From: Bacteroidota bacterium
Lineage (GTDB): Bacteria; Bacteroidota; Ignavibacteria; Kapaibacteriales; UBA2268
Direction of reading: 5' to 3'
DNA length: 64,000 nucleotides
Assembly (NCBI GenBank): GCA_004322215.1
Contig: SCSM01000040.1
Span: forward strand, 124,001-188,000
Shown here piece by piece: positions 34,857 to 38,918 of the stretch (position 1 is the first letter of the stretch; every line of letters begins with the position of its first letter). Position numbers and translations under genes: made by a program. The notes under the pieces are model-generated. The model had not been told where the DNA came from. It ran no database searches and saw only the letters and a list, made by a program, of their open reading frames with translations.

Positions 34857-35645
34857 ATGAAAAAGTTAGTTCTGATATTATTCTTTGTTATTATACAAAC
34901 TAGCTTTGCCCAGTGGGAACTTTGTAATAATGGATTACAAGGTAATGAAATTTCATACTCTAATGTCGAAGGCAATATAACTTATACAGATAAGACCGGG
35001 GGTGAAATTATAACAACAGACAATGGAGATTACTGGTTTACGAAAAATATTAGAATATCAAATTTGCGTGTTCTCTCATTAGCAATGAATGGAAATAATA
35101 TTTTTACCGGCACAGAATATGAGCAGGTATTCCTATCTTCTAACAATGGAGTTGAGTGGAAATATATGGGATTGAAAAACTCTACCGCAATTGCATTTAT
35201 GATAATAATAGGAAATAATATTTTTTTAGGTGGTCAAGGAGTTTATTTATCCACTGACAATGGAAATAACTGGACTGAAAAAAATTCAGGATTAATATAT
35301 CTATGTGAACCAAGTTTAATAATAAATGGTGATTATATTTATGCCGGAACTAATAATGGAAGGGTATTCAGAGCAAAACTGAGCGACCTTGGGATTACTG
35401 ATGTAAAAGATACTTACCGAAGAACTGAATATACAATCTATCCCAATCCCTCCTCCGATTTCATTTTAATAAAATCTGATGATGAAGCAATCAATCAAAA
35501 AATAAAAATAAACGACATACTCGGAAACACAGTATGGCAGGGCATTATGAATGGGGAATCAATGCGGATTGATATATCAACATTTCCCGGTGGAGTGTAT
35601 TATGTGTATGTAAATGGCATTACAAAAATGTTTGTGAAGAATTGA
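34857..35645 (+). CDS. Short T9SS propeller-repeat paralogue
   Basis: 262 aa. Signal peptide ending TSFAQ. Only about four to five blade-like repeats remain (ITTDNGDYWF, LSSNNGVEW, LSTDNGNNWTEKNSGL), followed by the linker RVFRAKLSDLGITDVKD and a T9SS tail. The linker and tail match the preceding gene, with a stretch of about 140 bp in the tail nearly base-for-base identical. This points to duplication with repeat loss or to gene conversion. RBS: TAGGAG ten bases upstream. Confidence 0.85.
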   Translation: MKKLVLILFFVIIQTSFAQWELCNNGLQGNEISYSNVEGNITYTDKTGGEIITTDNGDYWFTKNIRISNLRVLSLAMNGNNIFTGTEYEQVFLSSNNGVEWKYMGLKNSTAIAFMIIIGNNIFLGGQGVYLSTDNGNNWTEKNSGLIYLCEPSLIINGDYIYAGTNNGRVFRAKLSDLGITDVKDTYRRTEYTIYPNPSSDFILIKSDDEAINQKIKINDILGNTVWQGIMNGESMRIDISTFPGGVYYVYVNGITKMFVKN

Positions 35646-35657
35646 TAAAAGAAAAAA

Positions 35658-35846
35658 TTATCTTATTGGTGGTATTCCTAAATCTTTGCAAATCTTAATA
35701 CAGAGATTATTACTTATTTCAACATGACGGGGAACTGAACTTCTTCTATTTTGTTCAGGATTAAACCACCAGGAATGTCTGCTGCCTTCTCTTAATTGAT
35801 AGCAACCATACGAATTAAGATATTTCAGTAATTCATTTCGTTTCAT
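35658..35846 (-). CDS. hicA: HicA mRNA interferase toxin
   Basis: 62 aa. A complete HicA dsRBD-like fold with the catalytic His: NSYGCYQLREGSRHSWW, NPEQNRRSSVPRHVEI and a C-terminal KICKDLGIPP. HicA cleaves mRNA. The start overlaps the hicB stop by four bases (ATGA). Unlike the other toxin genes between 21 and 40 kb, this one is intact. Confidence 0.92.
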   Translation of the reverse strand: MKRNELLKYLNSYGCYQLREGSRHSWWFNPEQNRRSSVPRHVEISNNLCIKICKDLGIPPIR

Positions 35847-36055
35847 ACAAGGATTTTCTCTTCCCTGAAATGGCTTCCTGCGGCTGATATAGCATCATTT
35901 TTATTAAATTCTATTGCCTCTGAAAGAGTGATCCTTAAGGTATCAATTAATTCTTCAAAAGTGTTTTCCTGACAGTTTACACCGGGAACTTCCTGAATCC
36001 ATCCAATCCAGCAATTGCCTTCATCTTTAATTACAGCAGTATATGTGTTGTTCAT
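35843..36055 (-). CDS. hicB: HicB antitoxin
   Basis: 70 aa. Partial RNase-H-like HicB fold: MNNTYTAVIKDEGNCWIGWI, then EVPGVNCQENTFEELIDTL and LSEAIEF. It is encoded upstream of hicA, the less common order for this pair. No separate C-terminal DNA-binding domain is evident, so autoregulation may depend on a partner. Confidence 0.9.
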   Translation of the reverse strand: MNNTYTAVIKDEGNCWIGWIQEVPGVNCQENTFEELIDTLRITLSEAIEFNKNDAISAAGSHFREEKILV

Positions 36056-36164: not shown

Positions 36165-36293
36165 TTCCTCGGAAAAGCAGTCTGGCGTGGAATTATTGAA
36201 ATCGAAACGATGCAGATTGATATATCATCATTTCCCGGTGGTGTGTATTATTCAAGGATTGGAAATGAAACGAAAATGTTCGTGAGGAATTAA
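36165..36293 (+). pseudogene. Orphan T9SS sorting-domain remnant
   Basis: A 42-codon frame ending in TAA reads FLGKAVWRGIIEIETMQIDI, then SSFPGGVYYSRIGNETKMFV and RN. It matches the tails of the two propeller genes (GNTVWQGIMNGESMRIDIST, FPGGVYY, MFVKN) but has no start codon or upstream domain. A leftover of a third paralogue. Confidence 0.8.
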
Positions 36294-36649
36294 TTGAATA
36301 TAATAAATAATTACACCTAATATTTATGTAATAATTTGTTCATCATTTCGACATACCTAATTGAATTGTATTGATATATACTTCTTGAATGAGGAACAGA
36401 AAATCAAATAGATTGTTCGATTACGATTATTCCAATGAAGGTCTGTATTATGTTACTTTATGTACTAAAGAAAGAATTGAATGGTTTGGAAAAATTAATA
36501 ATTACAAAATCTTGCTGGATGATTATGGTGTTATTGTAAAAAATTTTTGGGAAGACATACCCAAACATTATAATAATGTATTAATTGATGAATATGTTAT
36601 TATACCAAATCATATTCACGGAATAATTATCATCAACAAAAACAATGTA

Positions 36650-36672
36650 GGGACAGAACATTGTTCTGTCCC
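36650..36672. repeat. REP palindrome, copy 1 (inside RAYT)
   Basis: Perfect 11-bp arms GGGACAGAACA and TGTTCTGTCCC around one T. Confidence 0.9.
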
Positions 36673-36700
36673 AAATAACCATAATAACCATCAAAAGGCA

Positions 36701-36723
36701 AGGACAGAAAAATGTTCTATCCC
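36701..36723. repeat. REP palindrome, copy 2 (inside RAYT, degenerate)
   Basis: AGGACAGAAAAATGTTCTAT followed by CCC; four positions differ from copy 1. Confidence 0.85.
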
Positions 36724-36953
36724 TACAAAAAAAACATACATTATGGTTTATTATCAAAAATTATAAAATCTTACAAAGAGGCATGTGTTAAATACGTAAG
36801 ACAAAAATTTAATGATTATGAATTTGGTTGGCAACGTTCATTTTATGACCATATTATCAGAAATGAAAAATCATTACAAAACATTAGGGATTACATTAAC
36901 GATAATCCAATTAAATGGGAATTGGATGAATATAACCGTGTAATAAAATTGTA

Positions 36954-36975
36954 GGGACAGAACATTGTTCTGTCC
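36954..36975. repeat. REP palindrome, copy 3 (at the RAYT stop)
   Basis: Same arms as copy 1, with the last C replaced by A. The stop codon's G is the first base of the repeat. Confidence 0.9.
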
Positions 36976-37004
36976 AAAACTACAAAATTAATAATGAATG
37001 GATC

Positions 37005-37027
37005 GGGACAGAACATTGTTCTGTCCC
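37005..37027. repeat. REP palindrome, copy 4 (upstream of mnmG)
   Basis: Perfect copy ending 28 bp before the mnmG ATG, so it lies in the probable mnmG leader and could form a hairpin there. Confidence 0.9.
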
Positions 37028-37055
37028 TACAGGAAAAAATAAATTGTTAAATACA

Positions 37056-38918
37056 ATGTACAACAATTTCGACATAATCGTAATCGGCGGGGGACACGCA
37101 GGCATCGAAGCATCCTGGGTTTCTGCAAACATGGGCTGCAATACTGCTCTCGTTACTATGTCGCTGCATACACTCGGTAGGCCTTCGTGCAATCCTTCAA
37201 TAGGCGGTACTGCAAAAGGTCATCTTGTCAAAGAAATTGATGCATTGGGTGGGGCAATGGGAATGTTGACCGATAAAGCCGGGATTCATTTCAAGATGCT
37301 GAACAAATCCAAAGGTCCGGCTGTCTGGTCTCCTCGTGCACAGATTGACAAAGACCTCTATCCTCAATATGCTCTTCAGCTTTTAAGCAGAACAAAGAAC
37401 CTTACATTAATTACTGAAACAGTTGATGAAATTCTTGTCGAAAAAGGAAAAGTTAAAGGTATCAGAACAGGTAACAATGAAATTATTAATGCAAAAGCTG
37501 TTGTGTTTTGTTCTGGTACATTTCTGAATGGCTTAATGTGGACAGGAATGAAATCCACACAGGGCGGCAGATTTGGAGAGAAACCTGCTCTCAATGTTTC
37601 GGACAGATTGCTCGAACACGGTTTCGAATCAGGACGCCTGAAAACCGGCACTCCTCCCCGTGTTCTGGACAGCACTATTGATTATTCAAAAACTCAAATT
37701 GCTCCCGGTGATGAAGAACCACAGCCATTTTCATTCAGGACATACGAAGTGAAAAACAGAATCATCTGCCACGCAACAAGCACCAATGCGGAGACTAACG
37801 ACATATTGAGAACGGGATTCGACCGCTCTCCTATGTTCACCGGCTTAATCAAAGGCACCGGACCCCGCTACTGTCCTTCGATTGAAGACAAGGTTGCACG
37901 CTTTGCCGATAGGGATTCACATAAAATACTACTCGAGCCGGAGGGATTGAATACAAATTCTGTTTATGTCAACGGCTTTTCATCATCGCTTCCCGAAGAT
38001 GTGCAGGAAAGGGCTTTGAGAACAATACCTGGTTTGGAGAAAAGCAAAATAATCCGCTATGCTTATGCAGTTGAATATGATTTCTTCTATCCTTATCAAC
38101 TCAAATTCACTCTCGAAACAAAACCTGTCGAAGGGCTTTACTTCGCCGGGCAAATCAACGGCACATCAGGATACGAAGAAGCCGCCGCTCAGGGTTTGGT
38201 TGCCGGAATTAATGCTGCGCTGAAAATCAAAGGTGATGGTGAATTTACTCTTAAGCGTTCAGAAGCATATATTGGAGTTCTCATTGACGACCTGGTTAAC
38301 AAAAGCACTGATGAGCCATACCGTATTTTCACATCTCTTGCCGAATACCGCCTTTTGCTCAGGCAGGACAACGCCAGCCAGCGGCTTATGAAATATGGTC
38401 ATCAGTACGGATTGATTCCAAATAGTGTTTTTGAAAAATCTCTTGCTGAAGAAGAAAACATTAGAAAGGCATACAATTATACACAAAATATAAAATTAAA
38501 GCCAGAAGAAATAAACGATTATCTGGATTCTGTAGATGAGACGCAAGTCATTGAAACAACTGATATTTACACCTTAACAAAGAGAAGTAATATTTCTCTG
38601 AAGCAAATAATTTTGCGTGTGAATGAACTGCCTCCCGAATTAATTAAAATTGCAAAAAGCGATTATCTTTTGAATCAGCTTCAGACTGAAATCAAGTACG
38701 AGGGATACATCAAACGCCAGAACAAAGAAATCGAATATTTCCTCGAAAATGAAAATAAACGAATACCTGATTCATTCGATTATACTAAGGTAAATTCTCT
38801 TTCAAAGGAAGCAATCGAAAAACTTAACAAAATCCACCCCGGCTCACTGGGACAAGCATCCCGCATATCCGGTATCTCCGCATCAGATGTTTCGATATTA
38901 GCTTTGTATCTTAAGTGA
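37056..38918 (+). CDS. mnmG: tRNA U34 5-carboxymethylaminomethyl modification enzyme MnmG
   Basis: 620 aa from ATG 37056, the usual family length. An FAD-binding Rossmann motif ([14 protein letters not shown]) opens the protein. The family signatures [10 protein letters not shown] and [12 protein letters not shown] follow, then the helical C-terminal MnmE/tRNA-binding region ending [20 protein letters not shown]. With MnmE it modifies the wobble uridine of several tRNAs. mnmE is not in the window. This gene (old name gidA) often lies near the replication origin, which agrees with the parS sites 2-4 kb downstream. Confidence 0.97.

Follow-up and report, generated by a model that had tools for sequence, protein, structure and literature searches.

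A split RAYT gene upstream of mnmG

The window, the whole stretch of 64,000 nucleotides (nt) analysed here, comes from an uncultivated bacterium and carries a RAYT transposase gene in two pieces that are read on the plus strand in different frames. The N-terminal part (36389–36766) contains the NHIH (HUH) motif and matches the N part of model NF047646 (E 1.2e-5, 25.2 bits, cut-off 80); its frame stays open through a first pair of palindromes, REPIN 1, and stops at 36766 after 125 amino acids (aa). The C-terminal part (36712–36954) holds WQ and the Y motif YINDNP, and matches both NF047646 (E 1.6e-9, below cut-off) and Y1_Tnp (E 1.1e-4, 22.7 bits, cut-off 23). The split of the gene keeps these scores under the curated cut-offs; both halves match RAYT models, which supports the RAYT-like identity given to the gene in an earlier note on this DNA.

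Downstream lies mnmG (37056–38918, plus strand; GIDA, E 1.2e-157), with a likely ATG at 37056, a TTG start at 37044 in the list of open reading frames (ORFs), and 94–95% identity with the genes of congeners over the first 100 residues searched. Upstream of the RAYT gene, a HicA-like gene (PF07927) at 35658–36055 is overlapped by a HicB-like minus-strand ORF, with a model match for HicA only, and positions 36170–36295 appear by eye to be the decayed end of a secretion-tail protein, resembling the end of the ORF at 34857–35645.

A stretch of 378 base pairs (bp) that takes in part of the RAYT gene and the sequence directly behind it holds four GTAG-tagged copies of a 23-bp palindrome, GGGACAGAACA-T-TGTTCTGTCCC. 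The palindrome's arms, GGGACAGAACA and TGTTCTGTCCC, are as the earlier note gave them: the arm occurs eight times in the window with at most one mismatch, against 0.54 expected, no shuffle reached eight, and seven of the eight occurrences fall within 36650–37027. That note had counted four perfect copies in 380 bp, two inside the ORF, one on its stop and one in the mnmG leader. The number and placement stand, but two copies are imperfect. The first, perfect and within the ORF (36650–36672, plus strand), was found by both arm search and genome palindrome search; the second, also within the ORF (36701–36723, minus strand), has three mismatches, and the third, on the RAYT stop (36954–36976, plus strand), has one, both coming from the genome palindrome search. 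The fourth (37005–37027, plus strand; both searches) is again perfect and ends in the mnmG leader, 28 bp 5′ of the likely ATG.

Together the copies make two inverted pairs, each exactly 80 nt long when measured tag to tag (GTAG of the leading REP, CTAC of the trailing one). REPIN-like pair 1 (REPIN 1; 36647–36726, plus strand) sits within the RAYT loop. REPIN-like pair 2 (REPIN 2; 36951–37030, plus strand) spans the RAYT stop and the mnmG leader, ending 25 bp before the likely ATG, and its GTAG supplies the TAG stop of the RAYT C-terminal half (36952–36954). An arm search of the window found no REP 5′ of the gene.

The break in the reading frame

The earlier note held that the internal copies keep the frame. 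The ORF is indeed open through both of them, but the frame of the gene is not kept, the two halves being read in different frames. REPIN 1 is 80 nt long, that is, 3n+2; when it is removed, the joined flanks give a single open frame of 161 codons, and the frame change across it is exactly the amount that 80 nt would produce. Judged from the sequence, insertion of REPIN 1 alone can explain the break, with the proviso that a third of arbitrary insert lengths would give this frame shift.

A single-base indel explains the break equally well. Directly 3′ of REPIN 1, a sequence read of the strand shows a run of eight A (36727–36734, plus strand), a possible site of slippage or indel. The pair could thus have entered with the frame open, as the embedded REPs are read in most relatives (a count limited by design to readable genes), and the gene could have died later through a one-base change in the run. 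An 80-nt insert cannot by itself be in frame, so that extra bases must have come or gone as well, and we regard this history as rather unlikely.

The same run lends itself to a further reading, in which the gene is still used and −1 slippage, ribosomal or transcriptional, rejoins the halves, the insert making it a low-output RAYT. In the zero frame the context is ACA AAA AAA ACA, which places A AAA AAA in the right phase, and a −1 shift leads into the C-terminal frame. Against this, no other member shows a similar arrangement, A runs are common in this AT-rich genome, and the genome's second RAYT is plainly broken; slippage seems to us improbable, more so than a late indel. That second gene (L048; G000 C33:131497–131793) has an internal TGA, and its loop contains a decayed palindrome of another type, in frame (VGVQNFES), with six further similar places in the genome.

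A REP family dispersed through the genus

The earlier note had proposed a genome-wide count of the palindrome, with restriction to this site as the result that would speak against its reading. Allowing up to three mismatches, a search of this genome gave 18 distinct places (control 0), four at the locus and 14 elsewhere, which supports a dispersed REP. Of the 13 among those 14 for which loci were available, 11 are clear of any ORF of at least 100 aa, one sits in an ORF extension that exists only with GTG or TTG starts, and one touches the stop codon of an ORF as well as an antisense ORF. With the centre base free and up to three mismatches, three congeners (G001, G002 and G003) have 21, 5 and 27 places, the genome G020 has one and the Patescibacteria genome of locus L131 has two, whereas the remaining 13 of the 18 genomes in this search lack it (control 0 in every genome). 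Restriction to this site is contradicted by these counts, and a palindrome unique to this genome is likewise ruled out by its presence in all three congeners, once in G020 and twice in the L131 genome. In a phylum sample of 345 genomes, from whose list the congeners are absent, one genome has the exact palindrome. The REP family is genus-wide.

Twenty congener copies with no or one mismatch were read with approximately 1 kb on each side (for two of them, 0.2–0.3 kb on one side). None has a partner within 120 nt, making all 20 singlets rather than pairs; none has a nearby stretch that matches the RAYT C half, and the N half matches through the palindrome alone. Five of the 20 lie within an ORF of at least 100 aa, counting any start. 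Neither the homologue search nor the reading of these 20 copies met a RAYT with this palindrome in the three congeners, where the RAYTs found bear other palindromes or none. Because a cognate RAYT was not met in the congeners, this one locus and the tree described below are what ties the RAYT to the REP. The 1.5 kb upstream of mnmG holds no RAYT in any of the three, and G001 keeps the same hicAB pair there. Either the RAYT arrived at this place in the present lineage or the others lost it; since the REP family is genus-wide, loss, or an earlier RAYT copy elsewhere, fits as well as arrival.

These data also bear on an account in which the palindromes act as operators or terminators for mnmG, or form hairpins that have nothing to do with the RAYT. 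One copy does end 28 bp before the likely start of mnmG, but the 14 further places in the genome, the GTAG tags and inverted pairing, and the lack of either palindrome arm within 3.3 kb around mnmG in the three congeners leave this account very improbable.

REPs in the loop of related transposases

We surveyed 109 loci, from many phyla by title: 29 of 30 homologue-search loci, the window's own being excluded, and the best 80 of 565 matches. A frame with HUH and W motifs could be read in 97 of the 109, and dropping the 12 unreadable loci favours in-frame inserts. Palindromes were required to have an arm with at least nine matches and at most one mismatch, a loop of at most 6 and at least three G or C. 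By this measure the loop, from the HUH strand to the next helix, contains 116 palindromes in 15,996 nt, in 75 of the 97 genes, and the coding sequence outside it contains 13, in 12 genes and 43,731 nt. The share of 75 in 97 may be too high, as the best 80 were ranked against L027, which itself has loop REPs, and the other homologue query is also REP-bearing; both figures include a probable duplicate (L051 and L094, apparently one contig), which was removed for the codon comparison and the tree. Codon-shuffled loops gave a mean of 3.6 palindromes and a maximum of 7, against the 116 observed, and together with the window shuffles they rule out chance palindromes.

The comparison with RAYT genes lacking inserts, which the earlier note had suggested, gives 22 of the 97 readable genes without a loop palindrome by the measure used. 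Thirty other Y1 transposase genes (NF047646 matches given as loci, mostly with other motifs) have three palindromes in 13.2 kb, none resembling a GTAG REP, which rules out palindromes as a general trait of Y1 transposases. The homologue searches behind the 109 loci gave no close homologue whose loop is empty.

Many of the loop palindromes carry the tag: 66 of the 116 have a 5′ GT[AG]G tag and 59 a 3′ tag, with 27 having both and 18 neither. The 66 5′ tags are read in frame 0 (V-G) in 54 cases and in frame 1 in 12, and never in frame 2, where GTAG would read as a stop. Relatives' loop REPs differ in sequence from the palindrome of this locus. A locus's own loop palindrome recurs in its flanks at 34 of the 75 loci, against 199 of 7200 trials on the flanks of other loci. 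The loops of L047, L155, L161 and L159 are long runs of short peptide repeats, of approximately 50–150 aa, possibly grown from REP-derived codons.

The predicted structure of a relative's protein, L044, agrees with a loop at this site. The model (pLDDT 85.4) is unstructured at residues 80–109 (block means 60, 57 and 73), between a strand at 72–79 and a helix at 110–129, and it is there that the REP is encoded. Its fold matches the ISDra2 and IS608 transposases and the REP-bound TnpAREP 4er8 (E 8.7e-8, 7.1e-7 and 3.8e-7, respectively), and a profile of the relatives also matches 4er8 (E 7.2e-9). The proposal that the inserts occupy a loop region thus gains from both sides, the site holding REPs in 75 of the 97 readable relatives and being unstructured in the model.

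Conservation of the embedded repeat as DNA

Codon use was compared in 46 pairs, drawn from 25 loci, with at least seven of nine residues identical in the embedded unit. Within the unit, identical residues have identical codons in 93% of cases, compared with 48% for the core of the same proteins; for glycine the counts are 48 of 50 against 99 of 313, and for proline 43 of 49 against 37 of 190. The unit exceeds the core in all 46 pairs, which share loci and are hence non-independent. At the level of sequence, then, DNA conservation is stronger in the embedded repeat than codon conservation is in the core, although such a signal could come from recent insertion or repeated re-insertion as well as from selection on DNA.

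A quick tree of 97 rows, all from this survey and with the loop excluded, has 47 of 94 inner branches below 80 and 8 starred. Foot type (GGGAC/GAGAC or GGGGC) could be labelled in 48 rows, leaving 49 of the 97 without a label, and changes four times, against a minimum of 7 and a mean of 9.2 in 100 shuffles; on these sequences the REP foot type is seen to follow the RAYT tree. The reading frame of the tag, available for 55 rows, changes seven times (shuffles: minimum 9, mean 11.1), and insertions or shifts therefore occurred more than once. The window's RAYT pairs with the Patescibacteria row L131 (support 87), inside a 13-row group (support 93) that contains eight of the ten rows labelled GGGAC/GAGAC, the window's gene included.

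Palindromes found at the RAYT locus alone

The genome-wide copies of a RAYT's own palindrome were counted for 20 RAYT loci, with up to two mismatches (three for the window's gene) and with many of the assemblies being drafts. At ten of these loci, in nine genomes, every copy found is at the RAYT locus, and nine of the ten have a copy in the gene. All copies lie in the gene in G008 (three of three), G039 C62 (three of three), G454 (one of one) and G457 (one of one), and in the RAYT ORF in G456 (two of two). Elsewhere they also lie close by: G020 has two in the gene, one just after it and one at approximately 1.8 kb; G039 C91 one in the gene and one just before; G455 one in the gene and two within approximately 1.6 kb; and G461 one in the gene and two within 50 bp of the gene ends. 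In G033 three copies lie just after a RAYT gene that has an internal stop.

The other loci have copies beyond them: the window's RAYT (18), the same genome's second RAYT at C33 (7), G001 (14), G003 (11), G458 (8), G460 (14), G463 (7), G465 (7) and G459, whose 7 copies, all within 5 kb of one contig, were counted as beyond the locus. So does G464 (L113, an uncultured Actinobacillus sp. metagenome-assembled genome), whose RAYT holds a copy; its 65 places of a GGGGCGAAA-type palindrome are the highest number in one set of 20 genomes. Left out of the locus count were G462, whose own palindrome misfits the pattern, and eight genomes of that set with other palindromes (0 matches). Palindrome families also occur with no such copy in the RAYT genes read in the same genome, as in G028 (two families of 17 and 9 copies, the one homologue-search match there, L042, bearing a third palindrome type), G002 (7 and 5 copies of two palindromes) and G007 (4 copies).

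The embedded REP could accordingly be a kept part of the RAYT gene, as a seed copy or a self-regulatory hairpin, rather than a passive insertion. Codon identity in the unit, the ten loci with all found copies at the RAYT locus and a foot type that follows the tree are what such a part would lead one to expect. The same DNA signal can come from recent or repeated insertion, though, and 22 of the 97 genes lack a palindrome; several genomes hold REP families for which no embedded copy was found (G002 and G028, and the three congeners for the window's palindrome), the frame varies among lineages with at least seven changes on the tree, and at this locus the insert breaks the gene. As a seed, the embedded REP would be kept at the DNA level, travel with the gene between phyla and be able to found the REP family of a new host; in a variant, the enzyme could through it act on the gene that encodes it or on the mRNA of that gene. 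We hold these two possibilities, taken jointly, to be rather unlikely, given the REP families without an embedded copy. Were it correct, the window's out-of-frame pair would be a failed or self-limiting case.

Interpretation

The reading that we favour, as the probable one, is a RAYT of the subclass 2.4 kind with its own REP family, targeted by its own element and split by an out-of-frame 80-nt pair. By analogy with what is known of the family's chemistry, its HUH/Y1 nuclease would recognize a GTAG-tagged hairpin in single-stranded DNA, cut it and rejoin the ends. REP copies would tend to settle in the linker that joins the HUH and Y halves, presumably because the REP family has the RAYT gene as its hub and extra residues are tolerated in the linker. 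Pair 1 would in this copy have entered out of frame, splitting the gene and leaving a truncated product of 125 aa; only −1 slippage on the A run behind the insert would allow a full-length protein, and the function of this RAYT has probably been lost or reduced. As the dispersed copies read in congeners are singlets, the 80-nt pair is at most a candidate for a mobile unit.

On this reading, the locus adds a further member, in damaged form, to a group already described. What is puzzling about the group is why one transposase subclass keeps its own recognition palindrome within its reading frame, in most members and across many phyla. An account by passive insertion must meet the conservation at the DNA level, a palindrome type that follows the transposase tree, and the half of the counted loci whose palindrome is found at the locus alone. 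An embedded copy that served as a seed would account for the origin of REP families once a RAYT has been transferred horizontally.

Comparison with known systems

Conservation at the DNA level and locus-only palindromes were not met in the passages of the literature consulted, and may be known. Among short palindromes within protein genes, the Rickettsia palindromic elements are alike in their setting, but RPE-4 and RPE-6 belong to a CGTC class, with no adjoining transposase and in unrelated target genes (PMC3733652). The REPINs of Bertels and Rainey (2011) likewise consist of two inverted REPs and a spacer beside a RAYT (PMC3116915); here, pairs are seen at this locus only, the 20 congener copies being singlets.

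The GTAG-class REPs of Di Nocera et al. (2013) share with the present family the GTAG tag, inverted dimers and intragenic copies, and there, too, the tag provides a TAG stop (PMC3733652). That article describes intragenic REPs in repair and other genes and REPs that flank RAYTs; in the sections consulted, no RAYT gene is named as the target.

The closest likeness is to TnpAREP subclass 2.4 (Bertels group 4), for which Quentin et al. (2018) describe in-frame REP insertions within tnpAREP as a hallmark (PMC6006769); insertion without disruption of the frame is an observation there, and no criterion for the subclass. The motifs NHIH, WQ and Y-I-x-x-N-P are shared: NHIH in the N part fits NH[IFV]H, WQ lies in the C part, and YINDNP is one position off YIxNNP, a position at which relatives also vary. 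W, Q, H and R are present where that article places GTAG recognition, with D instead of E. Both have a variable insertion after the HUH strand, which in the alignment lies between beta 3 and helix C, where the L044 model is unstructured, and the REP insert at 36647–36726 falls between the HuH and Y motifs, as in the subclass. GT[AG]G-tagged REPs flank and enter the gene in subclass 2.4, and this RAYT has copies inside it, in its 3′ flank and at the 14 places elsewhere in the genome; the copies in congeners correspond to what that article calls the ‘double foot’ type. In-frame REPs in subclass 2.4 RAYTs were thus already published in 2018, and the departure at this locus is the split frame: the published insertions are said to leave the frame intact, whereas at this locus an inverted pair has been inserted and the gene is in two pieces.
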